Shown one piece after another: positions 3,877 through 35,938 of a DNA stretch of 38,124 nt. The position numbers and the translations under genes were made by a program. A model generated the notes under the pieces. The model saw only the letters and a program-made list of their open reading frames with translations, did no database searches and was not told the origin of the DNA. Positions within the stretch are counted from its first letter, which is position 1. Every line of letters begins with the position of its first letter. This DNA is from Candidatus Competibacter sp. (lineage in GTDB: Bacteria; Pseudomonadota; Gammaproteobacteria; Competibacterales; Competibacteraceae): assembly GCA_029624815.1 (NCBI GenBank), contig JARSSH010000059.1, positions 14,031 to 52,154 of the forward strand. Direction: 5' to 3'.

Positions 3877-4901
3877 CACGGGACCGATACTGTAGCATGC
3901 CGCCGTTCCAGCCGCCCCACTCCCCACATCAGGAGGCCGTAGACCAGTATCCAAACCATCGCCAGAATTATTTGCCCGGCGGGCGGCAGCCGAACCGCCA
4001 GCAAGGCGGAACCGGCGCAGGCCAGCATCAGCGTATATTCCACCAGCACGGTACGACAATGCCCCCAGCCGAGCACCACCATCCGCTGGTAATAATGGGT
4101 TCGGTGCGCTTCCCAAATCTTCTCCCCGCGCAGCAACCGACACGATAAGGTCACGGTGGCATCGACGATAAAGGGGGAAAACACCAGCAGCGCCGCCCAG
4201 AACGGGAATAAGCCGGCTTTGGCGCCCCACAGACCACACCCGGCCGCCAGAAAGCCCAGCGCGGTGGAACCGGTGTCGCCGAGGAAAATTTTAGCGGGTG
4301 GAAAGTTGTAAACCAGGAAACCCGCACCGGCCGCCGCCACGATCAGACAGAAAGTCGCAAACCCGGCGTCGGCCCAACCCAGGCAAGCCAGCGCCGAAAA
4401 ACCGATCACTGCCATGCCGCTGGCGAAACCGTCCATGCCGTCCATGAAGTTGTAGAGGTTGATCATCCAAACGATGAACAGCAGGGTAAGAGGGATGGCA
4501 ACCCAAGCAGGAAGAACCAAGGCAAGACCGGGTAGGGCCAATGAACCGGGCGCCAGATCCGCCACCAACAAGCTGACAGCGGCCAGCAGATGAACTAAGA
4601 TGCGCCACCGGGCAGCGACGCTCTTGCGGTCATCCTGAAACGACACCAGCGCTAGTGGAATCAGGCCGGCAAGCAAGAACCCCGTGATCCGAAAAAGCGA
4701 GGAGGAGGTGGTTTCGATAATCACGGCGATCGATACGCCGGCGAAGATCCCTCCCAAAACCGCCAATCCCCCTGTTCTTGGAACAGGCTGTCCGTGCAGG
4801 GAACGAGCGGTTGGATAATCGATGAGGCGCAGATGCACAGATGCATTCAAAAGACGCCTATTCAAAAATAATGTGATCGTGAATGCCAATAGCGCGTTCA
4901 T
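3876..4901 (-). CDS. WecA/MraY-family undecaprenyl-phosphate sugar-1-phosphate transferase
   Basis: This polytopic protein of the glycosyltransferase 4 (WecA/WbpL/MraY) family starts a polysaccharide by moving a sugar-1-phosphate from a UDP-sugar to undecaprenyl phosphate at the inner membrane. Family motifs are in order: the Asp pair in SFQDDRKSVAARWRILVHLL, the catalytic loop NLYNFMDGMDGFASGMAVIG, FLGDTGSTALGFL, and a basic loop ending EAHRTHYYQRMVVLGW. The ATG at 4901 puts the first helix (NALLAFTITLFLN) directly at the N-terminus. A start at 4958 would add 19 hydrophilic residues and run into the divergent exporter gene. The gene is coupled to the downstream dehydratase by TGATG. The identity of the sugar (GlcNAc, FucNAc or QuiNAc) cannot be read from the sequence. 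Confidence 0.9.
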   Translation of the reverse strand: MNALLAFTITLFLNRRLLNASVHLRLIDYPTARSLHGQPVPRTGGLAVLGGIFAGVSIAVIIETTSSSLFRITGFLLAGLIPLALVSFQDDRKSVAARWRILVHLLAAVSLLVADLAPGSLALPGLALVLPAWVAIPLTLLFIVWMINLYNFMDGMDGFASGMAVIGFSALACLGWADAGFATFCLIVAAAGAGFLVYNFPPAKIFLGDTGSTALGFLAAGCGLWGAKAGLFPFWAALLVFSPFIVDATVTLSCRLLRGEKIWEAHRTHYYQRMVVLGWGHCRTVLVEYTLMLACAGSALLAVRLPPAGQIILAMVWILVYGLLMWGVGRLERRHATVSVP

Positions 4902-4935
4902 CGTTACAGTCCGGAGACAGGTATCCACTTTAATA

Positions 4936-5748
4936 ATGCTTGAGTACGACTCTAGCAATAGACCACCACCAGTGATTGACGAGCTTATTCAGCTCGTTCA
5001 TTATCGTGACCTAATCTTTCTGATGGTGGAAAATATCATAAAAAATCGCTACAAGCGTTCGGTGCTTGGTATTTTTTGGATGTTGCTTAATCCATTACTG
5101 CAAACGATAGTGCTCACCATCGCTTTTGGCGCAATGTTTAAATCATCGCTACCCAATTATGCGATTTACCTATTATGTGGCTTACTGGCATGGAATTTTA
5201 TCACACAAACCACTCAGTACGCCATGAGCACCATGGCGTATGGTGGGGGTTTACTCAAGAGGGTATATATTCCACGAGCCACCTATATTGTTGCGGCGGT
5301 TGGAAATGGGTTAATTAATTTTCTGGTTTCAATTGCTTCCTTAATTATTATCGCCATTTTTCTCGCTCATCCGATAACGCTGACTTGGCTATTTCTACCA
5401 GTCAGTATCCTTATTTTAGCTATATTTGCGCTTGGATTTGCGTTGCTTTTATCTACTTCGTCTGTATTTTTCACGGATACAGTGGATATTTATCAGGTAC
5501 TGATTCAAGCTTTCTTTTTTCTGACGCCTATCATGTACCCCTCCTCGATCCTTCCAATCGAGTTGAGCCGCTTATTGGCATTTAATCCATTCTTGATATT
5601 AATCGACATTTTTCGCATACCCATATATGTCAATCAGTTGCCTAGCGTCGATCTTATCATAAGCTCGATATTGCTCGCACTCATGACCTTAGCTGCTGGC
5701 TGGATCATGTTCACAAAAAAAGCCGACCAGATCGCTTATCGTCTTTAA
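4936..5748 (+). CDS. ABC-2 polysaccharide exporter permease (Wzm-like)
   Basis: This 270-residue permease has about six membrane helices in the ABC-2 layout of Wzm/KpsM/RfbA: a short cytoplasmic start, then ENIIKNRYKRSVLGIFWMLL and NPLLQTIVLTIAFGAMF, ending near FTKKADQIAYRL. It would form the inner-membrane channel for lipid-linked polysaccharide, powered by the ATPase two bases downstream. The frame runs back to 4822, but the extra 38 residues are basic and not family-like, so the ATG at 4936 is used. No good ribosome-binding site is visible before it. Base composition becomes AT-rich at this gene. Confidence 0.9.
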   Translation: MLEYDSSNRPPPVIDELIQLVHYRDLIFLMVENIIKNRYKRSVLGIFWMLLNPLLQTIVLTIAFGAMFKSSLPNYAIYLLCGLLAWNFITQTTQYAMSTMAYGGGLLKRVYIPRATYIVAAVGNGLINFLVSIASLIIIAIFLAHPITLTWLFLPVSILILAIFALGFALLLSTSSVFFTDTVDIYQVLIQAFFFLTPIMYPSSILPIELSRLLAFNPFLILIDIFRIPIYVNQLPSVDLIISSILLALMTLAAGWIMFTKKADQIAYRL

Positions 5749-5750
5749 AA

Positions 5751-6491
5751 ATGAACGATATCGCCATAAAGCTTGAGAATATAACGGTTCGGTTTCGTAT
5801 TCCACATGAAAAAATCCCGACTTTCCAAGAATATGCGATTCGCTGGCTGAAGCGGCATAGCGTTAATTATTCAGATTTCAATGCCTTAAATAATATTAGT
5901 TTCTCAATAAAGAAAGGTCAAACCTTCGGAATTATAGGTTCCAATGGCGCAGGGAAAAGCACTCTCCTCAAAGTAATCTCACGAGTTATTCGCCCTACTC
6001 AAGGACGGGTTTTCTTGAGAGGACGCATTGCGCCATTACTCGAACTTGGCGCAGGATTCGACTATGAAATGACGGGCCGTGAAAACATCTTTCTGAATGG
6101 CGCGGTATTAGGGTTCAGTCGCAAGCATATAGCAAGTCGTATAGAGAAAATTGTGGAATTTTCTGGTATTGAGGAATTTATTGACGCCCCAGTTCGCACC
6201 TACTCCAGTGGTATGGTAGCAAGGTTGGGATTCGCGGTCGCGACGGATGTTCAACCTGAAGTTCTTGTCATCGACGAGATACTATCGGTGGGGGATATTG
6301 ATTTTCAAAAAAAATCGGCAGAAAGAATTTTGGAGTACTACAACAATGGTTCAACGATTCTTGTTGTTTCCCATAATCCAGCTTCGATAAGGCAACTCTG
6401 CACTCATGTAATATGGTTGGAGCATGGTTGCATAAAAACGATGGGGCCTGTGGACGATATTATTAATGATTATTCATCGCCACTTTCATAA
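5751..6491 (+). CDS. ABC polysaccharide exporter ATPase (Wzt-like, no carbohydrate-binding tail)
   Basis: This 246-residue nucleotide-binding subunit has Walker A GSNGAGKST (about 64-72), a Q-loop region near LLELGAGFDYEMTGRENIF, signature YSSGMVARLGF, Walker B EVLVIDEI and the switch His in VVSHNP. These match TagH/KpsT/Wzt ATPases that export O-antigen, capsule or teichoic acid. The protein ends soon after the ATPase fold. It lacks the C-terminal carbohydrate-binding domain of E. coli O9a-type Wzt, which couples export to recognition of a capped chain end. That places it with systems in which polymerisation and export are coupled in another way. The start codon follows the permease stop by two bases, so the two genes are one operon. 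Confidence 0.93.
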   Translation: MNDIAIKLENITVRFRIPHEKIPTFQEYAIRWLKRHSVNYSDFNALNNISFSIKKGQTFGIIGSNGAGKSTLLKVISRVIRPTQGRVFLRGRIAPLLELGAGFDYEMTGRENIFLNGAVLGFSRKHIASRIEKIVEFSGIEEFIDAPVRTYSSGMVARLGFAVATDVQPEVLVIDEILSVGDIDFQKKSAERILEYYNNGSTILVVSHNPASIRQLCTHVIWLEHGCIKTMGPVDDIINDYSSPLS

Positions 6492-6853
6492 AGCATCTAT
6501 GAAACAGCTTCGTGCAGCGATAGCGCATTAGTAGCAAGTCAGCCCTAGCAAAGCCTTTGGATTTACGGAGAACTCCTCAAAGGCACTAAGGCCATGCACA
6601 CTGCCCGAGGCGGCAGGTACTACTAGCGAAAAAATGCCTATTCGCTAGAAAAATGCTTGCAATCACTTTGGATCTATCGTTGGGAACCTGATCAATGAGC
6701 TATTAATCGATAACTAGCGGTGGTCAATATCCTCCGCATCCGGCTGTGCTATAAGCCAACTTCTCTGGACAAATTCGAATATTATGCGCCCCAGATAGAA
6801 CTGGAGGCTGACCTAAGTTAATTATCTATTATCTAAATTATTGAAGGTGCCTT
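6492..6853. other. Non-coding gap with a possible gene remnant
   Basis: This 362-base stretch separates the exporter genes from the sulfotransferase fusion. A short open frame at about 6715-6819 encodes a peptide including CYKPTSLDKFEYYAPQIELE and ends in TAA. It has no convincing start and may be the tail of a decayed gene. The last bases hold a good ribosome-binding site (AAGG at 6844-6847, six bases before the ATG at 6854). I see no clear terminator or transposase. Confidence 0.3.
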
Positions 6854-9800
6854 ATGCAGATCATTATCCTTGGTATGCACCGATCCGGAACATCGGCAGT
6901 AACTCGCTTAGTGAATATGATGGGCGCTTATATTGGGCCTGAAAACCTAATTGGACAACCAGCGTTAGACAATCTTAAAGGATTTTGGGAACGATACGAT
7001 GTGCGCGCATTAAATGACGACATTCTGAAAGCGCTTGGTGGAAACTGGAACCATTATGTAAAACCGGATATTGAAAAACTATCAGACAGTGATTTGGAGC
7101 GATTTAATAAGCGTGCGAAAAATATGGTTTTTAATCTTGATACCCATCGACCATGGGTACTCAAGGATCCTCGGTTATGCTTACTTTTTCCCTTCTGGCG
7201 CACTTTGTTGGAAGTTCCGATTTGCTTAATCGTTTACCGCTCACCATTGGATGTGGCATTTTCAATAAAACGGCGTAATCAATTCCCTCTTAGTGTTGGA
7301 ATTGCTTTATGGGAATTTTATCAACGCCATGCGCTGGTGGCTTCAGAAGGACTACCAAGAATTTTAGTTTGTTATGCAGATCTCATTAAGGATCCAGTTA
7401 AGGAAACCACCCGTTTATACACAGCGCTAGAAGATTTAGGTGTACGCGGATTAAGATTACCCTCTGAACGTGAAATCCGAGCGTTTATCGACTCTGCCCT
7501 CCAGCACGAATGCACGGATATCGAAGCGTATTACGAGCGCTTGAATTTCCAACAGCAGGAGCTTGTACGCCATTTTGAAAATGGCACTGTTCTCAATACT
7601 AGGAACACAACCGCAGAGCTATCGGCTAATGCACATGAGTTGCTGATTATTGCGACCGACCTCGATACCGCCCGAGCCGACCTCGATACCGCCCGAGCCG
7701 ACCTCGATACCGCCCGAGCTGGCAATCTTTCCTTAATGGCTTTAAAAGAAAAAGATGAGCGCAACTCGATTGAGCTAAAACAACTAAAATTGACACAAAA
7801 CAATCTTGAAGATCGCCTTCATTACTTAGAATATCGCGAGGCGGAACTAACCCGCTGGATTAATGCGTTACTCTCTAGCGTGAGCTGGAAAATCACAGCC
7901 CCATTACGAGCAGTCGCAAATTTTAAAAACTGGGTAGCCTTGAGAAACCATGATGTAAAAGATGCCTATAAGAAAGGTGGCATTCTTAATATAGTCAGCC
8001 ATACGTCGAGTTACTTTTCTACAAGCTTATTTGGTGCAAATCCGGCTAAGCATCCAATCCTGCAGCACAATAGTACAATCGTTCAATTACCTAATGACTC
8101 ACCATCGAAAAATCCTCAGCTACTCGATAGCAACATCGTTTCTCAAGCCGTATCACAGGTAATTTCATCTCAGTTTGATGTGGTTTGTTTTGCAAATATT
8201 GAATGGTCAGCACGCTATCAACGCCCTCAGCATCTCATGAGTCAATTTGCAAAAAATGGCTATAGGGTATTTTACATAATTGCTTCAAGGCGCCCTCCAG
8301 CAAATGTAGCCTATATGATCGATGAAGTAGCTGAAAATATATATGAAATATGCCTTCACGTAGGTTCTGTTCAAAATTTCTATGACGAGATAATTGAGCA
8401 CAATAACCAGCTTGATTTTCTAAATTCCTTGGCTGAATTGATAAAAGATTATCGAATAAAAACTGCCATTTCAGTGGTTCACTTGCCGTACTGGACACCA
8501 CTGGCGCTTGAGCTAAGATCTCGATATGGCTGGAAAATTCTATACGATTGCATGGATGAGTGGATTGACTTTCCGAATATTGGCAAGGCATTGATTGAAC
8601 AAGAAGAAATTCTTGTTCGACAAAGTGACCTTGTAACTGTTACGGCATCACTTCTTTATGATAAATGGTCGCCAGTCGCTCGACACTGTATATTAATAAG
8701 AAATGCCGTCGATTATGTGTTCTTCAGAAAACATTGCTCTCCTAATCCACTCTTGGACGATATAGCTAGGCCTATAATTGGGTACTATGGAGCACTGGCT
8801 GAATGGGTTGATTTTGAACTACTATCGTTCTTGGCGGAAGCTAGACCCAACTGGAGCTTTGTGTTAATTGGAGATATATTTGTTGACGATATTGCTGGAC
8901 TGGAAAAAATGCAGAATATTTTCATGCTGGGCCGTCGGCCTTATACAGATATGCCACGTTTTCTCTATCACTTCGATGTATGTCTAATTCCATTTAAACT
9001 TAATAATGTGACGCATGCAGTCGATCCTGTCAAATTTTACGAATTTGTTAGTGCTGGAAAACCTATCGTGTCGGTCCCACTGAAGGAATTGAAGATATAT
9101 GGCGATTATATATATTTTGCCGATCAGCCAGAAGATTTTTTGAAGCAATTAGAAACCGCACTGGTTGAAAACAATTTTGATTCTTTTAATAAGCGGATTG
9201 AATTAGCCCAACAAAACGATTGGTCTAATCGTTTCGATAAGATTCTTTCATCGATTAATGAACTTTATAAAAAAGCTTCCTTTATTATCGTCACCTATAA
9301 TAACTGCAATCTTACACAGCTTTGTGTTGAAAGTATTTTTCGAAATACGACATACCCCAATTATGAAGTCATTTTAGTTGATAATGCCTCGTCTGACGAT
9401 ACTCGTAATTATTTACGCTATTTGGCTCGCACGTCTGACCGTATTAAAATCATTCTCAATGATCAAAACTTGGGGTTTGCAAAAGCAAATAATCAGGGAC
9501 TCAAGGTAGCAACAGGCGAACTTCTTGTGCTGTTGAATAATGATACCGTAGTGCCGCGAGGCTGGCTTGATCCACTACTAAAGCATCTAGAAAATCCAGA
9601 TATTGGTTTGGTTGGACCTGTAACCAATTTTGTTGGAAACGAAGCTAAAATCGATATTGACTACCAGTCACTCGATGAGATGGAATTTTTTGCCGACCGC
9701 TATACTGACGCTCATACAGGTAAGGCTTTTGATATCGCGGTGCTCGCGATGTTTTGTGTGGCCATGCGCCGTAATGTCTTTGAAAATATCGGCTTTCTCG

Positions 9801-10027
9801 ATGAAAAATTTGGAATCGGCATGTTTGAGGATGACGATTATAGTAACCGTATTCGTGAGAAGGGGTTACGTGTAGTATGTGCTGAAGACGCTTTTGTTCA
9901 CCACTTTGGGCAAGCTGCATTTAAGAAATTAATTGAAACGGGTGAATACCAGAAAATCTGGGCTAACAATCAGGCCTACTATGAGGAAAAATGGGGAAAA
10001 TGGAAGCCTCATACGCACCGCGGCTAG
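6854..10027 (+). CDS. Sulfotransferase / coiled-coil / GT4-like / GT2 fusion protein
   Basis: This 1057-residue cytoplasmic protein has at least four parts. Residues 1-230 resemble a PAPS-dependent sulfotransferase, with a 5'-phosphosulfate loop IIILGMHRSGTSAVTRLV and a 3'-phosphate region near CLIVYRSPLDVAFSIKRR. Residues about 254-335 are a predicted coiled coil containing DLDTARA three times, followed by SSVSWKITAPLR. Residues about 435-795 form a GT-B glycosyltransferase (WSARYQRPQHLMSQFAKNGY; C-terminal half with PVKFYEFVSAGKPIVSVPL). Residues about 805-1040 form a GT-A family 2 domain (SFIIVTYNN, VILVDNASSDDTRNYL, NDTVVPRGWLDPLL, FEDDDYSNRIREKGL). It probably adds sugars and sulfate to the exported polysaccharide. 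PAPS use is inferred from family motifs; no sulfate-activation genes are in the window. Confidence 0.88.
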   Translation: MQIIILGMHRSGTSAVTRLVNMMGAYIGPENLIGQPALDNLKGFWERYDVRALNDDILKALGGNWNHYVKPDIEKLSDSDLERFNKRAKNMVFNLDTHRPWVLKDPRLCLLFPFWRTLLEVPICLIVYRSPLDVAFSIKRRNQFPLSVGIALWEFYQRHALVASEGLPRILVCYADLIKDPVKETTRLYTALEDLGVRGLRLPSEREIRAFIDSALQHECTDIEAYYERLNFQQQELVRHFENGTVLNTRNTTAELSANAHELLIIATDLDTARADLDTARADLDTARAGNLSLMALKEKDERNSIELKQLKLTQNNLEDRLHYLEYREAELTRWINALLSSVSWKITAPLRAVANFKNWVALRNHDVKDAYKKGGILNIVSHTSSYFSTSLFGANPAKHPILQHNSTIVQLPNDSPSKNPQLLDSNIVSQAVSQVISSQFDVVCFANIEWSARYQRPQHLMSQFAKNGYRVFYIIASRRPPANVAYMIDEVAENIYEICLHVGSVQNFYDEIIEHNNQLDFLNSLAELIKDYRIKTAISVVHLPYWTPLALELRSRYGWKILYDCMDEWIDFPNIGKALIEQEEILVRQSDLVTVTASLLYDKWSPVARHCILIRNAVDYVFFRKHCSPNPLLDDIARPIIGYYGALAEWVDFELLSFLAEARPNWSFVLIGDIFVDDIAGLEKMQNIFMLGRRPYTDMPRFLYHFDVCLIPFKLNNVTHAVDPVKFYEFVSAGKPIVSVPLKELKIYGDYIYFADQPEDFLKQLETALVENNFDSFNKRIELAQQNDWSNRFDKILSSINELYKKASFIIVTYNNCNLTQLCVESIFRNTTYPNYEVILVDNASSDDTRNYLRYLARTSDRIKIILNDQNLGFAKANNQGLKVATGELLVLLNNDTVVPRGWLDPLLKHLENPDIGLVGPVTNFVGNEAKIDIDYQSLDEMEFFADRYTDAHTGKAFDIAVLAMFCVAMRRNVFENIGFLDEKFGIGMFEDDDYSNRIREKGLRVVCAEDAFVHHFGQAAFKKLIETGEYQKIWANNQAYYEEKWGKWKPHTHRG
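7658..7720 (+). repeat. Three 21-bp tandem repeats, each encoding one coiled-coil heptad
   Basis: Units lie at 7658-7678, 7679-7699 and 7700-7720. The first two are identical; the third differs only in its last base. Each encodes DLDTARA or an equivalent register, seven residues, so gain or loss of a unit keeps both reading frame and heptad phase. The units are GC-rich inside an AT-rich gene, which suggests recent amplification or separate origin. Confidence 0.95.
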
Positions 10028-10053
10028 CTGTTAATTTCTTCCATAATTCGCGA

Positions 10054-10062
10054 TGATATAAT
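10054..10062 (+). promoter_or_regulatory. Extended -10 promoter for the methyltransferase gene
   Basis: TGATATAAT combines the TGn extended -10 motif with a perfect TATAAT (10057-10062). Transcription would start near 10069, about 26 bases before the ATG at 10095. A Shine-Dalgarno GGAGG at 10084-10088 lies between them. No good -35 is seen, as is usual for extended -10 promoters. Confidence 0.55.
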
Positions 10063-10094
10063 CTTTTCGAATAGCGTTATTTTGGAGGCCGCCG

Positions 10095-11018
10095 ATGAAT
10101 AATGATAAAAAAAAGACTGCCGATTATTGGTCGCAAAATGTGGCGGGATCGAATCCTTTTTCTCCTGATGTCTATTGGTTGGCTGTACCAGAAGTACAGA
10201 GGCGCTATCAAAAAAAGGCTTGTGCTAATAAGCCTTTTCCAAGCTGGGTAGAATATTGCGTTAAGGAATTTTTAGGAAGTAATATTCCTGTACAAAAAAT
10301 GCTCAGTATTGGCTGTGGAATTGGCGGTTTGGAGCGCCATTTATTTAATTTAAATGCATTTCAACATTGTCATGCCATCGATATTTCTCCAAGAGCCATC
10401 GAAATTGCCAAGCAAGAGGTAGAGCAACTCGGCATAACCTCCATCATATATTCAGTATATGATGTCGAGGTTATGGATCTAGCAGTAAACCAATATGATG
10501 CGGTTTGGTTTAACGGTTCGCTACATCATATTAAAGAATTGGAAACAGTTTGTAATCGGGTCAAGCGAGCATTAAAACCGGGAGGATGGCTATTTTTTAA
10601 TGAATATGTTGGCTTTAATCGGTTTGCCTTTTCAAGCCGCCAACGTGATATTATCCAACATGCGTTTTACCTAATCCCATTGCGGTATCGACGCTCTTTC
10701 GTGCATCAGACTACGAATACATACCAGGAAACTCCACCCATACCCGACCCCACGGAAGTTGCGCGCACAGATCCCTCCGAAGCGGTACGATCACAAGATA
10801 TTTTGCCGATTGTCAATAAGTTGTTTGAGGTCGTAACCACTAACAACTGCGGCGGCTCTCTGCTGCAATTCTTGCTTAGTGGAATTGCCGGTAACTTTAA
10901 GTTATCCGACCCCCAATCAATGCTAATTCTTAACATGTTATTTGAGATAGAGGATGCACTTATCGACGCTGGAGATATTCAGAGCGATTTTGTTGTATTA
11001 GCAGCACGAGCTAATTAA
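10095..11018 (+). CDS. Class I SAM-dependent methyltransferase
   Basis: This 307-residue protein has a Methyltransf_11/25-type fold. The SAM-binding motif I is MLSIGCGIGGLERHLF (about 74-89), followed by the acidic residue at HAIDISPRAIEIAKQE. Motif II lies near YDAVWFNGSLHHI, and motif III at KPGGWLFFNEYVG. Such enzymes in polysaccharide loci methylate sugars or chain ends, but the acceptor cannot be told. An excellent GGAGG at 10084-10088 sits six bases before the ATG, and the extended -10 promoter just upstream suggests separate expression from the fusion gene. It is the last gene of the AT-rich island. Confidence 0.85.
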   Translation: MNNDKKKTADYWSQNVAGSNPFSPDVYWLAVPEVQRRYQKKACANKPFPSWVEYCVKEFLGSNIPVQKMLSIGCGIGGLERHLFNLNAFQHCHAIDISPRAIEIAKQEVEQLGITSIIYSVYDVEVMDLAVNQYDAVWFNGSLHHIKELETVCNRVKRALKPGGWLFFNEYVGFNRFAFSSRQRDIIQHAFYLIPLRYRRSFVHQTTNTYQETPPIPDPTEVARTDPSEAVRSQDILPIVNKLFEVVTTNNCGGSLLQFLLSGIAGNFKLSDPQSMLILNMLFEIEDALIDAGDIQSDFVVLAARAN

Positions 11019-11203: not shown

Positions 11204-11359
11204 ATGGTTGATATCGACTTGAGCCGATTACAAAAAAAGGTCGGGGCTCGCTGGCGGATACTAATCAAACGCAATCACGCGGCACCCCGCTTCTTTAAAT
11301 CACAAAAAAAACGAGACGCCTACATCTCGGCAGCGACTCAAAATGGCGAGAGGCTATGA
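11204..11359 (+). CDS. Possible 51-residue basic protein overlapping wecB
   Basis: An ATG at 11204 opens a frame of 51 codons that starts MVDIDLSRLQKKVGARWRIL and ends QNGERL. Its TGA overlaps the wecB start as ATGA, the usual arrangement for coupled translation, and wecB itself has only a weak, close ribosome-binding site. The peptide is rich in Lys and Arg, has no membrane segment and is not one I recognise. It could equally be the tail of a decayed gene at the boundary between AT-rich and GC-rich DNA. A GGAG lies about 14 bases before the ATG, which is too far to be strong support. The rest of the 11019-11355 gap shows nothing else. Confidence 0.35.
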   Translation: MVDIDLSRLQKKVGARWRILIKRNHAAPRFFKSQKKRDAYISAATQNGERL

Positions 11360-12468
11360 ATACTCGCACGTCCAGAATTCTCTGTGTTATTGGCACCCGA
11401 CCCGAAGCCATTAAAATGGCGCCAGTCATTCTGGCTCTAAGGAATGAGGACTGGGCCGATGTCCGGGTGCTAGCCACCGCCCAGCACCGGGATATGCTGG
11501 ACCAAGTGCTGTCGATCTTCGGTATCGACCCCGATATCGATCTCGATATCATGCGTCACAATCAGGCGCTCACCACGCTGACGGCGCGACTGCTGCTTGA
11601 TCTCGACGATGTGCTGCACGCCGAACGACCCGAAGCAGTCCTGACTCAAGGCGACACCACCACGGTCATGAGCGCGGCGCTGGCCTGCTTCCATCACCGA
11701 ATTCCGGTCGGACACGTCGAGGCTGGTCTGCGCACCGGAGATATGCTCAATCCCTTCCCGGAAGAAATGAATCGGGTGTTGACCGGCCGCCTGGCTCGAT
11801 GGCATTTCGCCCCCACGTACAGCGCCAGAGACAACTTGCTGCGGGAAGGCATACTGGATGAAACGATCCATGTCACTGGCAATACCGTTATCGACGCACT
11901 TTTGAACGTGGTTGATCGACACCCAACAGTCGGTCTGCCGCTTGATCCCTCTAAGCGGTTGATTCTGGTAACCGCACACCGACGGGAAAATTTCGGTGGG
12001 CCTTTCCGAGCGATCTGCCGCGCCATTCGCATCCTGGCGGACCATAACGAGGATATCCAGATTCTCTATCCGGTCCATCCCAACCCTAACATCCATACGG
12101 CAGCCTACGAAATGTTGGACGGTCACCCACGCATCGTTCTCTGCAAGCCCTTGGACTATCTACCCTTCGTGGGTGCGATGCAACAATCCTATTTTATTTT
12201 GAGCGATTCAGGCGGAGTGCAGGAAGAAGCGCCGGCTTTAGGCAAACCGGTCCTGGTGTTGCGGCGCGAAACCGAACGGCCTGAAGCGGTTCGGGAGGGC
12301 GTGGTCAAGCTGGTGGGGCCCAATCGGGATCGTATCGTCTCGGAAGCTCAGCGCCTGCTAGACGATCCCGCTGCCTACCGAGAAATGGCTCGGGGTGTTT
12401 CTCCATATGGCGATGGCCATGCCGCCGCAAGAATCGTGGCGGTACTGCGCGACGCGTTAGTGGGGTAA
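11356..12468 (+). CDS. wecB: UDP-N-acetylglucosamine 2-epimerase (non-hydrolysing)
   Basis: This 370-residue protein has the usual length for WecB/MnaA. It converts UDP-GlcNAc to UDP-ManNAc in the cytoplasm. Diagnostic stretches are CVIGTRPEAIKMAPVI, GDTTTVMSAALACF, VGHVEAGLRTGDMLNPFPEE, TAHRRENFGG, and SDSGGVQEEAPALGKPVLVL followed by RRETERPEA. No UDP-ManNAc dehydrogenase (WecC) gene is in the window, so UDP-ManNAc may be used directly, or WecC may be encoded elsewhere. The gene starts the GC-rich segment after the AT-rich island and probably leads an operon with the two GT4 genes that follow. Confidence 0.95.
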   Translation: MNTRTSRILCVIGTRPEAIKMAPVILALRNEDWADVRVLATAQHRDMLDQVLSIFGIDPDIDLDIMRHNQALTTLTARLLLDLDDVLHAERPEAVLTQGDTTTVMSAALACFHHRIPVGHVEAGLRTGDMLNPFPEEMNRVLTGRLARWHFAPTYSARDNLLREGILDETIHVTGNTVIDALLNVVDRHPTVGLPLDPSKRLILVTAHRRENFGGPFRAICRAIRILADHNEDIQILYPVHPNPNIHTAAYEMLDGHPRIVLCKPLDYLPFVGAMQQSYFILSDSGGVQEEAPALGKPVLVLRRETERPEAVREGVVKLVGPNRDRIVSEAQRLLDDPAAYREMARGVSPYGDGHAAARIVAVLRDALVG

Positions 12469-12473
12469 GCTGA

Positions 12474-13739
12474 TTGCGCGTTCTTGTCATTGCCTATGAA
12501 TTCCCCCCCATCATCGCCGCTCAATCGCTCCGGTGGTTTTATCTGACCCAAGAACTGGCACGCATCGGCGTCGAGGTTCATGTGCTATGCCCCTCTTTTC
12601 CAGCGCTTGAGGGATTGCATCCGGTCATCTTCGAGCCCGGTATCGTTCTCCACCGGGTCTGGCCCGGTCCATTCGTCGGACTGTCGCAATGGCTGGTTCG
12701 CGCTACGCGTAGCAATGCCATCACTGGCGCGTCGGATACCGGCAACATCCAACCCTTTTTTCTGCGAAGCTATCGGCTGACGCGCAAGCTGCTCGATCAT
12801 CTGCTTTTTCCAGACCTGCGCACGGAGTGGTATCCCTTCGCGCGCCGAAGACTTCATCGACTGCTGATCGATTACCGATTTGACGCGATGATCAGTTCGC
12901 ACGAACCTGGGGTCGATTTATTGTTGGGTCTATGGGCACAAAAGCAATTTAAGGTTAAGTGGATCGCCGACCTCGGCGATCCCATTCTGACACCGTATTC
13001 GCCGGGCTGGCGGCGGAAGATCGATACCCAGTTCGAGAGTCGCATCTTGCGGCAAGCCGATAGCGTGCTATTAACCAACGATTGGGTCAAACGCTTGCTT
13101 TGCGATCGCCATCGATTCACGGATGTTTCCAACAAGCTGATCTGTATTCCACAGGGCTTTCCAGAGCATTTGCCATTCGGTCATTCGGAAACCAGCCTGC
13201 TTTCCACTGGGGTCATGAATATTGTCTTTACTGGAACATTCTATCGCGATTTTCGTAGCCCACTACAATTTGCCCTAGCGTTGCGAGACATGAACGCGGA
13301 CGACATCATGATGACGGCGATTGGTGACAACCTCGATTTCATCCCAATATTTAAAGACATATCCAACATCCGCTTTCTCGGCAAGATCAATCACTTCGAG
13401 TGCCTTGCCGCACAAAGGGAGGCGGATCTGCTATTGAATATCGGTAATCTCCAGAGCTATCAAGTTCCCGGAAAAATCTTCGAATATCTCGGTGCAGCCA
13501 AGCCTATCCTGCATATCAAGACCAGCGAGGATGATATTGGGGCCAATTTGGTTCAGGAATTAAATGCTGGTCTAGTGGTGAAAAACGACCGTATCGCAAT
13601 CAAGACTGGATTACAACATCTACTGGAATTGTGGCGAAACCACAGACTCACCCAATCATTCCCACCCAATTTCGCCGCTATTGCACAATATTCCTGGTCG
13701 GCGCGCGCCAAGGATTTGCTTCAATTACTTACCCGCTGA
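12474..13739 (+). CDS. GT4-like glycosyltransferase
   Basis: This 421-residue GT-B protein is of the GT4 type. The N-terminal fold opens with RVLVIAYEFPPIIAAQSLRW and continues VEVHVLCPSFP. The C-terminal donor half contains VFTGTFYRDFRSPLQFALAL and PGKIFEYLGAAKPILHI. It would transfer a sugar from a nucleotide donor onto the growing lipid-linked chain at the inner face of the membrane. The start is TTG at 12474, five bases after the wecB stop, where GGGGTAAG serves as a ribosome-binding region. The tight spacing places it in the wecB operon. Donor and linkage are unknown. Confidence 0.85.
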   Translation: MRVLVIAYEFPPIIAAQSLRWFYLTQELARIGVEVHVLCPSFPALEGLHPVIFEPGIVLHRVWPGPFVGLSQWLVRATRSNAITGASDTGNIQPFFLRSYRLTRKLLDHLLFPDLRTEWYPFARRRLHRLLIDYRFDAMISSHEPGVDLLLGLWAQKQFKVKWIADLGDPILTPYSPGWRRKIDTQFESRILRQADSVLLTNDWVKRLLCDRHRFTDVSNKLICIPQGFPEHLPFGHSETSLLSTGVMNIVFTGTFYRDFRSPLQFALALRDMNADDIMMTAIGDNLDFIPIFKDISNIRFLGKINHFECLAAQREADLLLNIGNLQSYQVPGKIFEYLGAAKPILHIKTSEDDIGANLVQELNAGLVVKNDRIAIKTGLQHLLELWRNHRLTQSFPPNFAAIAQYSWSARAKDLLQLLTR

Positions 13740-13777: not shown

Positions 13778-14884
13778 ATGAGCGATTCTGCTGGAAGACG
13801 TCAATTCATACTTTACGACTACCTGCAAGTGGCTGGCGGAGCGGAGCGGCTGACACAAGTACTGGCGGAGGCTCTGCCGGATTTCCAAATGGTGGTCTCC
13901 CAGATTTATCCCGACTACCGGTACCTTGCCGACCCCTCCTCCAGTGCGCCACTGATACTTTCAAAGGGCATCGATCGGCTATTGGGAAGGATACCCGCCG
14001 CGATTTTCAATTTTTCCCTGCGGGCACAATTCCTGCGCGATGCCGATACTGTTCTATACAGCGGTTTTTATGCACCGCTGGCCGTTCGTCACCAACGGCG
14101 AGGATACAAGATCTATTATTGCCATACACCACCGCGTTATGCCTTCGATTTGAAGCAAGAGTATCTCGATCGATTGCAACCATCCCTACGCCCTGGGTTT
14201 AAGGTATTCGCTCACTGGATCAAAAAACGTTATCTCGCATCCATGTATAAAATGGACCGAGTTATTGCCAATTCGAACAATGTTCGATCCCGGTTATTAA
14301 ATATCGCGGGTATCGATGCTGAAGTCGTCCATCCACCGATCGATACGGATCTATTTTGCTGGCTGGGGCAAGGTAATTATTATGTTTCAACCGCACGATT
14401 GGAACCGAACAAACGTGTCGATCTAATCGTCGAAGCGTTTCGACGCATGCCTGACCAGCGACTCATCGTTCTTTCGGGAGGCAGTGCGTTCGAACGACTG
14501 AAAATCAGGGCTGGGAAAATGAGTAACATCCATTTCACCGGCTGGCAAACAGACGAGCAACTCAGACGATGGATCGGCAGAGCCATAGCCACTCTCTACA
14601 TTCCAGTGAACGAAGATTTTGGCATGTCGCCGGTGGAAAGCATGGCGGCCGGCAAACCCGTAATCGGGGTTGCCGAAGGTGGCTTACTGGAAACGATCCT
14701 GGATGGAAAAACTGGAATCCTGCTGCCGGCGGAACCGACTGTCGATCACATCGTCGGAGCCGTCCGACAACTGACAGCCCATCGTGCCTTGGCGATGAAG
14801 CCGGATTGCAAAGCTCGCGCCCGGTTATTTTCCAGGAGCATCTTCATCGATCAAATGCGGACTATTCTTAAAGGCACTTCTTAA
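13778..14884 (+). CDS. GT4 glycosyltransferase (WbaZ/mannosyltransferase-like)
   Basis: This 368-residue GT4 protein has the acceptor-side motif VAGGAERLTQVLAEALPDFQ and YCHTPPRYAFDLKQEYLDR, which is typical of mannosyl- and rhamnosyl-transferases of the WbaZ type. In its donor half are TARLEPNKRVDLIVEAFRRM and the EX7E motif region NEDFGMSPVESMAAGKPVIG. It lies 38 bases after the previous GT4 gene in the same direction and is probably co-transcribed with wecB. The ribosome-binding site before the ATG is not obvious. Sugar specificity is inferred only from family resemblance. Confidence 0.87.
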   Translation: MSDSAGRRQFILYDYLQVAGGAERLTQVLAEALPDFQMVVSQIYPDYRYLADPSSSAPLILSKGIDRLLGRIPAAIFNFSLRAQFLRDADTVLYSGFYAPLAVRHQRRGYKIYYCHTPPRYAFDLKQEYLDRLQPSLRPGFKVFAHWIKKRYLASMYKMDRVIANSNNVRSRLLNIAGIDAEVVHPPIDTDLFCWLGQGNYYVSTARLEPNKRVDLIVEAFRRMPDQRLIVLSGGSAFERLKIRAGKMSNIHFTGWQTDEQLRRWIGRAIATLYIPVNEDFGMSPVESMAAGKPVIGVAEGGLLETILDGKTGILLPAEPTVDHIVGAVRQLTAHRALAMKPDCKARARLFSRSIFIDQMRTILKGTS

Positions 14885-15327
14885 GTGGTGACCTTCACCG
14901 ATAAAAGCACCGACGCCATGCGCCAAACCGAAAAAATTTCAACCGATCCTGGTTTCGTTTTCGACCGGCGAAAAGCCCAATGAGCGGACCGCATCCATCG
15001 CAATGCCGGATTCGATCTGGATCGCCAGAACACTACCGAAGGAACAAGTTGCAAGATCGTTCGTCTACACTACCCTATGCAGGGATTGCCGTTTGCGCCC
15101 ACACCACGGATCAAGGGCTGGGGACGGAGTGGACATTGTCTGAACAAAACTTATTATGAATCAATGTGTTATTTGTATGGCTGGCTTGGCGACCAAGGAG
15201 AAAACACGGCGGCTGAAGGATGAGTTGTGGTCAATTTCCAAAATTTGTTGTAAATTTGAAAAGAGTTGTAAATTTGAAAAGAGTATTGTAGATTGTGATC
15301 AAGGTTCTGTACGAGCCCAAGGAGTAC
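14885..15327. other. Gap with a degenerate open frame and no recognised gene
   Basis: After the GT4 stop codon, the same frame stays open to a TGA at 15221-15223 except for one TGA at 14981-14983. The second part could encode about 79 residues, including RIKGWGRSGHCLNKTYYESM, but has no upstream start codon. I do not recognise it; it may be a decayed gene. The right part is AT-rich and carries an 18-bp tandem duplication. No terminator is apparent. Confidence 0.3.
15247..15282 (+). repeat. 18-bp perfect tandem duplication
   Basis: The units at 15247-15264 and 15265-15282 are identical (GTTGTAAATTTGAAAAGA). They lie 45 bases before the start of the small exported protein gene, in its leader or promoter region. 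They may be a regulatory duplication or simple slippage. Confidence 0.9.
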
Positions 15328-15768
15328 ATGGTGTATTTGTTACGTCGTCTGGTCATGATATTGTTAGTGTATCCCGCGATGACCGCCTCGGTTGTCGCGG
15401 CCGCCGAGGCGGTTCCGGCCGCCGAGGCGGTCCAGGCGCGGCGGGCAGTCCTGGAACAGCGTGTTGCTGCTTGGTGGGATGCGTTGATTCGCCAGGATTT
15501 TTCGGCTGCCTACTCCTTCACCTCACCAGGGTATCGGAAGTCCTACTCGCTTACCGCTTTCAAGGGTAAATTTGACAAAAAGTCAGACTGGCGAGGCATC
15601 AAAGTCGTCGATGTCGATTTCAAGGGCGATGACGCCGCGACGGTCGGCATCAATATGCATTTCGTGTATCATGACCCGCAAGCCGAGCGGGATTTTGATA
15701 TGCGGACTTACGTCCAGGAACCTTGGGTGCTTGTGGACGGGCAGTGGTGGTATCTGGTGAAAGACTGA
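15328..15768 (+). CDS. Small exported protein with NTF2-like/Cif-type fold (hypothetical)
   Basis: From the ATG at 15328 this is 146 residues. A hydrophobic leader (YLLRRLVMILLVYPAMTASV) is followed by a short Ala/Glu/Val repeat (AEAVPAAEAVQA). The mature part begins RRAVLEQRVAAWWDALIRQD, continues FSAAYSFTSPGYRKSYSL and ends QWWYLVKD. The pattern of WWDALIRQDFSAAYSF and a C-terminal Trp-rich strand fits SnoaL/NTF2-like exported proteins of unknown function. AAGGAG lies three bases before the ATG at 15328 and six before the adjacent GTG at 15331, so either may be used; a GTG at 15295 would add 11 polar residues. No function can be given. Confidence 0.65.
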   Translation: MVYLLRRLVMILLVYPAMTASVVAAAEAVPAAEAVQARRAVLEQRVAAWWDALIRQDFSAAYSFTSPGYRKSYSLTAFKGKFDKKSDWRGIKVVDVDFKGDDAATVGINMHFVYHDPQAERDFDMRTYVQEPWVLVDGQWWYLVKD

Positions 15769-20143: not shown

Positions 20144-20893
20144 ATGACCATGACCGACCTCAAGGCGCAACTACAAGCCGAACTCCCCGAACTGCTCAAG
20201 CAGGATCACAACTTCCGGCAATGGTTGGAGCAACTGATCCGACAAACGGCGGTCATGCCGGAAAGTTTCGACGCCCGCTTCGACCGGATGCTGCAAGAAT
20301 TCGCCGCTGACCGCGCCGAGCAGCGACGTAAGTGGGATGAGCACGACCGCGCATGGGAGGAATGGTCGGCCAAATTCGATGCCCACGCTGAGGAGCAGCG
20401 CCGCAAATGGGACGAACAAAACCGTAAGTGGGACGAGCAAAACCGTAAGAACAACGAATTACTGGAGGAAATCAAGCTCTCCCGCTCACGCCAGGATCAG
20501 GGCATCGGCGCATTGGGGGCACGCTGGGGCATCGCTTCCGAACACAGTTTCCGCGCCGCGCTGAAGGGAATACTGGAAAAAAGTTTTGGCGTCGAAGTGC
20601 TAAACGTCAACGAGTTCGACGACGAAGGCACGGTCTTCGGTACGCCCGACCAAATCGAGATCGACATCATCATCAAGAACGGCGAACTGATCCTTTGCGA
20701 ACTGAAATCCTCGATGTCCAAGTCGGACATGTACACCTTCGACCGCAAGGTGCGCTACTACGAGCGGCGCCATCGACGCCAAGTCCAGCGCAAGATCGCG
20801 GTTTCGCCGATGGTTCCTCCACCCGTCCGCGCCGTCGCCGAAAAACTGGGAATCGAAGTGTTCGGCTACGCCGAGGACGTCACTGGCGCGTGA
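20144..20893 (+). CDS. DUF3782-type coiled-coil + PD-(D/E)XK nuclease-like protein
   Basis: This 249-residue protein has an N-terminal helix, then a charged coiled coil (about 55-110) built of heptads such as RRKWDEQ and NRKWDEQ. A compact C-terminal domain (about 120-249) has a PD-(D/E)XK-like core: Asp174 in DQIEIDIIIKNG, then Glu186 and Lys188 in ELILCELKSS. This is the layout of DUF3782 proteins, known from cyanobacteria, archaea and some proteobacteria, with no settled role. The active-site pattern suggests a nuclease or a nuclease-derived DNA-binding protein. GAAGGAAG lies about eight bases before the ATG. It sits among glycan genes with no visible partner and may be a mobile insertion. 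Confidence 0.8.
   Translation: MTMTDLKAQLQAELPELLKQDHNFRQWLEQLIRQTAVMPESFDARFDRMLQEFAADRAEQRRKWDEHDRAWEEWSAKFDAHAEEQRRKWDEQNRKWDEQNRKNNELLEEIKLSRSRQDQGIGALGARWGIASEHSFRAALKGILEKSFGVEVLNVNEFDDEGTVFGTPDQIEIDIIIKNGELILCELKSSMSKSDMYTFDRKVRYYERRHRRQVQRKIAVSPMVPPPVRAVAEKLGIEVFGYAEDVTGA
20402..20443 (+). repeat. Two 21-bp direct repeats encoding heptads RKWDEQN
   Basis: Units at 20402-20422 and 20423-20443 differ at three silent positions. A third partial unit follows from 20444 and an older diverged copy starts near 20309. As each unit is one heptad, the coiled coil can lengthen or shorten in phase. Confidence 0.85.
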
Positions 20894-34936: not shown

Positions 34937-35938
34937 TTATTTTGGCTTTAAAAACAAGATAATTTGATATGGATCCATACTATTATACTCCAAACAAACC
35001 AAATCCCATTGTGGAAAATGGCTAACAAAATAATCCAGCGATATCGAGGTGTCACCATAGGTAATATCGCCATCGATCGGAGGCAGATCAAGCGGAGAAA
35101 AAGCAAATCCATTTTCATCATGGCTAGCCAACATCTCCGATGCTATTTCTCCTTTGTTGTGTATTTCCCAGTATTCTTTTGGCCTAATGGTAATCACTAA
35201 CAAACCGTTATCCGCTATATAATCTCTCAAAGTCTTGAGTACAACATGTGTTGTTTTTTCGCTTAAATGAGTAAATACAGAAAAAGCAAAAATCAAGTCG
35301 AATCTTTTATTGAATGGTAGGCTTTTTGGTACCCACTCGGAAAGTGCAAGATTGGCTTTTATACCATGCTTCTTACACTCATCAATAGATTGATCCCAAG
35401 GATCCACCGCATAAATATTTTCGAAACAAAAAAATTTATACAAAAGCCTAGTCAATCTACCCCATCCACAACCGTAATCAAGAACAACCGTTTTTTCTAA
35501 TGATTTCCCAGTAATTGCCATATATCCAAAAGCAAGCGCCTTTATGAACCCCAAGGACTGATCTAATAAAACCTGACCACAATTGCCTGTCCAGTGTCTT
35601 TGAACTTCTTCTGATGGCATAGTCGGAAAAAATGCCTTGATATTTGGATACTCTGTAGGTACTTCGAGTAATAGCTTACCAAATATTTCCATTGGGATAT
35701 ATTTAAATAGGCATGGTATATCAGATGGTTGCGCCATTGATATCTTTTTATCTATATCCTGTAATTTATCATCAAAGAGTGAAATCGTAATTTTATTATC
35801 AACCGCCTCAACCGCCTCAACCGCCTCAACCGCCTCAACCGCCTCAACCGCCTCGGCTTTCACAGTCACAACTCGGCGGAGACAATTTATCATTTTATCG
35901 GAAATCTGACGCACACCTAACAACCAATTTACGTTCAT
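34937..35938 (-). CDS. SAM-dependent methyltransferase with EAV minisatellite
   Basis: This 333-residue protein has a class I methyltransferase domain in its second half: motif I TVVLDYGCGWGRLTRLLYKF, the acidic residue at YAVDPWDQSIDECKKH, FDLIFAFSVFTHLSEKTTHV and YIADNGLLVITIRP. The first 130 residues are divergent and include six EAV tripeptides encoded by a GC-rich 9-bp tandem repeat. The gene is AT-rich, unlike the GC-rich locus to its left, and 152 AT-rich bases with no feature separate it from the ATG at 34784-34715 region. It could methylate a sugar or a chain end; the substrate is unknown. Confidence 0.83.
   Translation of the reverse strand: MNVNWLLGVRQISDKMINCLRRVVTVKAEAVEAVEAVEAVEAVEAVDNKITISLFDDKLQDIDKKISMAQPSDIPCLFKYIPMEIFGKLLLEVPTEYPNIKAFFPTMPSEEVQRHWTGNCGQVLLDQSLGFIKALAFGYMAITGKSLEKTVVLDYGCGWGRLTRLLYKFFCFENIYAVDPWDQSIDECKKHGIKANLALSEWVPKSLPFNKRFDLIFAFSVFTHLSEKTTHVVLKTLRDYIADNGLLVITIRPKEYWEIHNKGEIASEMLASHDENGFAFSPLDLPPIDGDITYGDTSISLDYFVSHFPQWDLVCLEYNSMDPYQIILFLKPK
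35801..35854 (+). repeat. Six perfect 9-bp tandem repeats
   Basis: AACCGCCTC is repeated six times with no mismatch, encoding six EAV tripeptides on the minus strand. Copy-number change keeps the frame, so it would change linker length and not switch the gene off. Confidence 0.97.

Follow-up and report, generated by a model that had tools for sequence, protein, structure and literature searches.

The window analyzed here is a stretch of 38,124 nucleotides from Candidatus Competibacter sp. (GenBank assembly GCA_029624815.1, contig JARSSH010000059.1, positions 14,031 to 52,154 of the forward strand). Our subject is a fusion gene at 6854..10027 that encodes, in a single open reading frame (ORF) of 1057 aa, a sulfotransferase, a helix or coil, a GT4-like glycosyltransferase (GT) and a GT2 glycosyltransferase. 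Upstream of it lie the genes of a Wzm-type ATP-binding cassette (ABC) exporter permease (308 aa; 4822..5748) and a Wzt-type ABC exporter ATPase (246 aa; 5751..6491). These genes, the fusion gene and the downstream genes described below are all encoded on the + strand. The permease matched Pfam ABC2_membrane, and its best NCBIfam match was the galactan permease Wzm/RfbD (80 bits, under the cut-off of 380). The ATPase matched only ABC_tran and general P-loop families in Pfam, and it scored 206 and 197 bits with the NCBIfam teichoic-acid and galactan exporter ATPases, both under cut-off. A first-pass annotation had described a sulfotransferase-coil-GT-GT fusion behind a Wzm/Wzt exporter whose ATPase lacks the carbohydrate-binding tail. 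Pfam and AlphaFold2 bore out the fusion as one ORF, and the exporter at 4822-6491 was confirmed as well, with no match to the tail domain PF14524. Overall, we propose that the fusion protein is a sulfate-capping coiled-coil ruler with a labile coil, an explanation that we hold with slightly better than even confidence.

The N-terminal, putative cap module (residues 1-244; 6854..7585) matched Pfam Sulfotransfer_3 over residues 3-193 with 29.7 bits against a cut-off of 27. An AlphaFold2 model of residues 1-440, built with 29 aligned sequences, displayed a sulfotransferase domain followed by one helix. The best structural relatives listed by Foldseek were tyrosylprotein sulfotransferases bound to 3′-phosphoadenosine 5′-phosphate (PAP); the top solved relative listed was TPST1 (5wrj; Z 16.1, root-mean-square deviation 4.1, 207 aligned residues, 13% identity), and many complexes with PAP or 3′-phosphoadenosine 5′-phosphosulfate (PAPS) were among the matches. 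Residues G7, H9, R10, G12, T13, S14, R129 and S137, which we take to be PAPS-binding positions, were invariant in the 29 aligned sequences. Judged by its family score, fold and cofactor-loop residues, the module is predicted to be a sulfotransferase of the PAPS-dependent type. Because the 3.6-Mb source genome contains two full-length matches to adenosine 5′-phosphosulfate (APS) kinase, the organism can probably make PAPS.

At the other end of the protein, the GT4-like module (delimited for comparison as residues 441-800; 8174..9253) contains a match to the group-1 GT family Glyco_trans_1_4 at residues 640-768 that falls slightly below the Pfam cut-off (26 against 27 bits). The GT2 module (residues 801-1057; 9254..10027) matched Glycos_transf_2 at residues 809-979 with 107 bits (E 1.2e-30). 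By sequence, the two GT modules sit opposite the cap across the coil, in the format of the O12 and O7 proteins of Klebsiella pneumoniae considered below, and they would polymerize the glycan.

Between the cap and the GTs, AlphaFold2 placed a single long helix at residues 258-373 (7625..7972), the putative coiled-coil ruler. The mean predicted local distance difference test (pLDDT) score was 80.9, with values of 73-90 in blocks 261-340 and of 63-65 for residues 341-370. We regard the helix as predicted with fair confidence and its oligomerization as a coiled coil as putative. A COILS-type scorer delimited a segment at residues 260-334 with a maximum of 1.44, and the globular domains of the fusion protein reached at most 1.23. 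The coil ends in the exit motif SWKITAPLR (residues 344-352; 7883..7909), which reads SWKITSPLR in the closest relative, G024. The end motif S-x-SW[RK]-x-T is common to the window protein and to WbdD of Escherichia coli, in which the same scorer ends the coil at SWRMT (residue 594). We compared 54 full-length homologues, that is, proteins of at least 700 residues of the sulfotransferase or methyltransferase type, 48 of them of the sulfotransferase type and the window gene included. Only 10 of the 54 matched the strict exit pattern, and the motif was rejected as a universal mark of these coils.

The coil contains a perfect tandem array at 7656..7719 (period 21 bp, 3.0 copies, 100% matches, score 128 in Tandem Repeats Finder), which outscores every other tandem array in the window. 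Its codons (7658-7720; residues 269-289) spell DLDTARA three times, so the three 21-bp units do encode three identical heptads, as the first-pass annotation had stated. The array has a G+C content of 72% (0.86 at third codon positions), compared with 39-45% in the remainder of 4822-11018. We found no second match to it in the source genome at E ≤ 1e-3, and a GC-rich donor elsewhere in that genome was rejected at this threshold. Weak matches of 23-34 bp to the array were present in G003 and G007.

Comparison with G024 provided the strongest clue to the N-terminal module. The operon of G024 is colinear with that of the window: Wzm is 76% identical and Wzt 83%, and the fusion gene is followed by the same methyltransferase (10095..11018; 80%), which adjoins the fusion in relative G018 as well (77%). 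Next come a WecB-like UDP-GlcNAc 2-epimerase (11356..12468; 78% in G024, colinear in both relatives) and two further GT genes (12474-13739 and 13778-14884; 55-56%), both colinear in G024 and only the first present in the compared G018 stretch. Within the fusion, GT4 is 78% and GT2 84% identical to those of G024 (GT4 of G018, 54%), and in BLASTN the coil-GT4-GT2 part aligned with 72.7% DNA identity over 2383 columns, nearly to the end of the gene. The N terminus of the G024 protein is a methyltransferase plus a second domain, which replace the sulfotransferase of the window. The many fold matches of this methyltransferase, in a list spanning residues 35-333, include CgnL (Z 16.0), which is also the protein reported to be structurally closest to the methyltransferase part of the O7 terminator in K. 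pneumoniae (PMC11231755). In the second domain, D461, N466, D479, E481 and W482 were invariant among 10 aligned homologues, a pattern that we read as kinase-like. Homology of the G024 N terminus to WbdD by sequence was rejected (no significant match, E 0.054), and WbdD was not among 48 Protein Data Bank sequence matches of the whole G024 protein (E ≤ 0.1).

In the DNA of the two fusion genes, similarity sets in at base 803 (window) and base 1769 (G024), no more than one base from where the respective arrays start (803-866 and 1768-1841). Looser protein alignments reached further upstream, from residue 257 and from residue 207. Because the similarity starts at the arrays, two unrelated cap modules are carried on the same coil and GTs, with the join at the array. 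Since G024 has a terminator-like module in its place, the sulfotransferase, at the distal end of the putative coiled-coil ruler, probably acts as the chain-capping enzyme.

The repeat units of the window and G024 differ at 6 of 21 bases, and within either gene the three full copies do not differ, except for the last base (7720) of the third window copy. If both arrays had been static since the split, about 11 copy-to-copy differences would be expected over 42 bases at 27% DNA divergence; one was seen, at the edge. This pattern suggests either that the arrays were homogenized or that one ancestral heptad was expanded separately in the two lineages.

Similar arrays recur across the family. Among the 54 full-length homologues, 10 contained an array with an identity of 90% or more; with the window gene left out, the count is 9 of 53. 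All ten array midpoints lay within 25 residues of predicted coil, which accounts for 7,606 of 66,371 residues, and of the 490 other ORFs with 200 residues or more in these stretches, 3 had such an array. The best arrays, 13 at a cut of at least 85% identity and a score of at least 100, had periods of 7, 11, 14, 18, 21, 28 or 32 residues. Every one of these can be written as 7a+11b, compared with 42% of all sizes from 5 to 40, although large sizes fit this formula trivially, the 13 arrays are not from independent lineages, and those at 85-88% identity could partly reflect the heptad periodicity of the protein. Examples outside this cut are L034 (score 84), L144 (score 69) and L074 (a 107-residue period at 72%, off the coil). 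When every array row of a full-length gene with a period of 15 bp or more was counted, weak rows included, 43 of the 46 were in frame and 39 fitted 7a+11b.

Coil length differs among relatives too. The spacer, measured between the end motif of the sulfotransferase and the exit motif of the coil (a strict pair present in only four sulfotransferase proteins), spans 137 residues in the window (G000), 338 in G018, 228 in G008 and 188 in G123. Relatives with other coil lengths thus exist, although G024 has the same three heptads as the window. For G003 the spacer was estimated by distance at 160 residue-equivalents, the gene being interrupted; in this genome of the same genus, the sulfotransferase-coil gene (L031:5536-6427) is broken by frame changes, from either decay or assembly error. 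The sulfotransferases of G008, G001 and G003 are 70-80% identical, and their coils contain a 32-residue unit in G008, a 28-residue unit around a 100-N gap in G001 and neither unit in G003. A Lacimicrobium relative found in a pattern-based contig scan had the same module order and no array. Upstream of one sulfotransferase-coil gene, at L121:3247-5739, lies a GT2-type protein whose own coil contains tandem repeats of 84, 102 and 186 bp (97-98%).

Natural alleles of known or putative rulers in E. coli were also compared. In the O9 locus of E. coli HS, wbdD is 2127 bp long, its coil ends at SWRMT, and the Wzt has 431 residues; the sole tandem row in wbdD is a weak 15-bp array (score 50) downstream of the coil. 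At least 80% of wbdD was found in 210 of 5,426 E. coli genomes. The second gene, a group 3 capsule methyltransferase-coil gene of the kind described in a 2026 study (PMC13171606), adjoins exporter genes. Its product has 912 residues; the predicted coil segments, which are long, fall between residues 298 and 796, and the exit motif reads SWKLTAPVR. Its length in 17 E. coli records was 2739 bp in nine, 2451 bp in three (two of which may be the same plasmid), and 2643, 2664, 2754 and 2523 bp in one each, and one record was partial. In eight aligned pairs covering eight alleles (L166-L168, L170-L174), with the 2754-bp allele left out, all length differences were confined to residues 298-796. A 96-bp indel corresponded to a single unit of a 96-bp tandem repeat, of which the longer allele has about two copies. 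MB20 and S1-ZIM-01-A differed by one 288-bp coil indel and were otherwise 99.9% identical; an Enterobacter plasmid allele displayed a 129-bp coil difference, and alleles 84.5% identical displayed coil differences of 75, 96 and 45 bp. Because the capsule alleles differ in this manner, rulers of this kind do change length naturally via in-frame coil indels, although not by whole heptads in these alleles, provided that the capsule protein is a terminator, as we infer.

After analyzing these data, we provide a putative mechanism in which the fusion protein, a single polypeptide of the O12/O7 format, would both polymerize and terminate a surface glycan that Wzm/Wzt exports. Chain extension at the membrane would fall to GT4 and GT2 at the C terminus. 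A parallel coil of helices, about 86 residues long and thus by arithmetic about 13 nm, would space the N-terminal sulfotransferase from them. On reaching the sulfotransferase, the growing non-reducing end would be sulfated from PAPS and growth would stop, so that the length of the coil would set the modal chain length. The coil would be a labile ruler that gains, homogenizes and loses tandem units, all of them in frame and compatible with the stripe of the helix, and cap modules (sulfotransferase or methyltransferase-kinase) would be exchanged at the array.

Several known systems resemble parts of this mechanism. WbdD of E. coli O9/O9a resembles the window protein in its N-terminal cap enzyme, its coil, its exit motif and its position beside wzm/wzt, and altering the length of its coil is reported to alter the modal chain length (PMC5082667). 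However, WbdD lacks GT modules and a coil array, its cap is different, its length is invariant in the 48 full-length rows compared, and its Wzt is longer (431 aa). In K. pneumoniae, the O7 protein, a methyltransferase-kinase-coil-GT2-GT2 polypeptide, is described as having been shown to be a terminator, and O12 WbbB is described with a Kdo (3-deoxy-D-manno-oct-2-ulosonic acid) transferase at the cap position, in the order Kdo transferase-coil-GT-GT (PMC11231755). Compared by their description, O7 ORF6 and O12 WbbB resemble the window protein in combining terminator, coil and polymerizing GTs in one polypeptide with an ABC-exported product, whereas their caps are methylphosphate or Kdo instead of sulfate, and the GTs of the window are GT4 and GT2. 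The main text of PMC11231755 has no word starting with "sulf", and no paper on a sulfotransferase terminator was among those listed in literature searches; an earlier mention is possible. In the wbsalmo locus of Aeromonas salmonicida, a 216-aa sulfotransferase-domain protein is described between wzt and wbbB (PMC4483657), but there the sulfotransferase is a separate protein and the Wzt has 438 aa. Predicted sulfotransferase genes are also described among the group 3 capsule modification genes in a 2023 paper (PMC10433991).

Two further systems bear on the variable coil. The E. coli group 3 capsule gene shares with the window gene a putative cap enzyme, a very long coil, the exit motif, an adjacent ABC exporter and coil-length variation. 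It differs in that its cap enzyme is a methyltransferase, no GT is fused to it, the exporter is a capsule exporter, the indels are not whole heptads, and its role would be that of a presumed terminator. In NeuO, encoded by an E. coli K1 prophage, slippage is described to add whole heptads to a polysaccharide-modifying enzyme and to grade its activity (PMC3046976). As described there, however, the unit is 7 bp with on/off phase switching, the heptads are unresolved in the crystal, and the enzyme is an O-acetyltransferase of another fold and not a ruler.

Several results weigh against the proposed ruler and its lability. The COILS-type score of the window coil was no better than that of composition shuffles (shuffle mean 1.30, 95th percentile 1.52). 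The coiled coil of the first-pass annotation therefore stands as a continuous predicted helix at residues 258-373, but not as a COILS-type score outside the shuffle range. Other results agree with a rival explanation, in which the protein would still be a ruler of the terminator type, with the 21-bp array a neutral by-product of tolerated, in-frame, helix-compatible duplications, with selection purging large shifts and no tuning taking place. This rival is compatible with the ruler part of our explanation, and we consider it a serious contender that falls somewhat short of an even chance. It accommodates the fact that G024 also has three full heptad copies, the same number as the window, despite 27% DNA divergence; because the copy number is three in both, rapid length change in this pair is disfavored. 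It likewise accommodates the proteins of G012, G025 and G030, which have 991, 990 and 986 aa and no arrays, and the constancy of wbdD: all 48 full-length rows among the best 60 of 263 records span exactly 2127 bp, and the prototype ruler was therefore not seen to vary. In a control set of ORFs with long coils, 1 of 19 had such an array; coil proteins in general may carry them, and this small control does not separate the family from such proteins. Seven of the 46 array rows do not fit 7a+11b, although all of these are weak (score at most 66; for example, 8 residues at L135 and 5 residues at L132), and the E. coli and Enterobacter indels of 15, 25, 32, 43 and 96 residues are not whole heptads. 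A clean whole-heptad rule was rejected because of these indels and because only 9 of the 13 stronger periods are multiples of 7.

A purely neutral array, however, sits less well with the recurrence of arrays with different units in many homologues, with the different coil units and lengths of G008, G001 and G003 despite their closely related sulfotransferases, and with capsule alleles that are 99.9% identical apart from a coil indel. Of the adjustable coil suggested at first pass, the variation in length among relatives and E. coli capsule alleles thus survived, but a clean whole-heptad rule did not, and wbdD was invariant in the 48 full-length rows; slippage of the window array itself would be a candidate mechanism.

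The remaining points against a capping ruler concern the exporter. Wzt_C (PF14524) was absent from the window Wzt by domain search, and two other places in the source genome have it (L157:7662-9095 and L158:7485-8795). Because these two further Wzt genes carry Wzt_C, the source genome probably has other, cap-recognizing exporters. The carbohydrate-binding domain of Wzt is described as essential for the export of capped O antigen (PMC9445017); therefore, a Wzt without this domain is the main obstacle to our explanation. In the window's own family, a Wzt was found in the fetched stretch at 9 of 10 close sulfotransferase loci (directly upstream in 8 of 10), and the Wzt at these nine loci has 227-253 aa, too short for a carbohydrate-binding domain as judged by length only. 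In family f34, a close sulfotransferase was present in 29 of 42 genomes (30 loci), and a Wzt (E < 1e-25) lay in the fetched stretch at only 4 of the 30 loci, some stretches being shortened by contig ends; a Wzt was encoded somewhere in 39 of the 42 genomes. Most sulfotransferase proteins at f34 loci without a nearby Wzt keep the coil, and among ten neighbor ORFs examined there, some are metabolic genes. Linkage to an exporter therefore held in the own family but not at 26 of the 30 f34 loci, so that one of the refuting conditions named at first pass, orthologues away from exporter genes, applies in part.

These observations agree with a second rival, in which the sulfotransferase would decorate the repeat units, or a sugar inside the chain, during synthesis and the helix is a spacer or oligomerization stalk that measures nothing: both the Wzt without a cap-binding domain and the many f34 loci that keep the coil away from any Wzt would be expected. 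However, G024 has at the same position a methyltransferase and a kinase-like module, a combination of the type described for chain-end capping (PMC11231755), and the coil-exit motif is common to WbdD. We consider decoration unlikely, although not negligible. Because the G024 Wzt is equally short (243 aa) next to a methyltransferase-type cap, the window clade may couple capping and export differently. The window system is probably a variant that works like the cap-recognizing class and is set apart by a Wzt without the carbohydrate-binding domain. The WbdD-like cap and ruler logic of the first-pass annotation thus gains from the cap swap in G024, the exit motif and the link to Wzt in the own family, and loses from the missing cap-binding domain. 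As a separate observation, a cap-gene remnant in the 362-bp gap at 6492-6853 was sought among the comparison loci and rejected, with no DNA match at E ≤ 1 and no protein match better than E 0.35.

An assembly or collapse artifact, with a true copy number different from three, is highly improbable: assemblies do fail in such coil arrays, as the 100-N gap in the array of the same-genus G001 attests, but the window ORF stays open across the array, an array occupies the corresponding position in G024, and 64 bp is shorter than a typical short read.

We also considered a broader proposal, namely that terminal sulfation is a new cap chemistry that needs no cap-binding domain in the exporter, and that coil rulers are general adjustable loci in which units of 7, 11, 14, 18, 21, 28 and 32 residues reset chain length and caps are swapped at the array. 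This generalization is tentative and rather doubtful. If true, the export of a sulfate cap by a Wzt that has no cap-binding domain would break a stated hallmark of capped export. The length of surface polysaccharides affects phage attack, immunity and envelope function, and coiled-coil rulers have been proven in a few serotypes; the same chassis with two caps and recurrent arrays bears on how ruler length evolves. Among the E. coli plasmids there are natural alleles that are nearly identical except in the length of the coil.

Several other repeats were noted. At 20401-20458 of the window, 21-bp tandem repeats lie in a second gene (20144-20893; DUF3782 and PDDEXK_10) and encode a charged, heptad-like stretch, RKWDEQN. 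An 18-bp direct repeat, GTTGTAAATTTGAAAAGA or its complement, occurs at window positions 15247-15284 and, in other genomes of the family, at L039:13380-13419 and L038:722-761, with a looser version at L026:952-1000; the window copy lies inside a 137-aa ORF (15156-15569) upstream of a gene for a secreted-looking protein. Finally, a perfect 9-bp repeat of 6.2 copies (TCAACCGCC) is present at 35799-35854, and its period is again a multiple of three.

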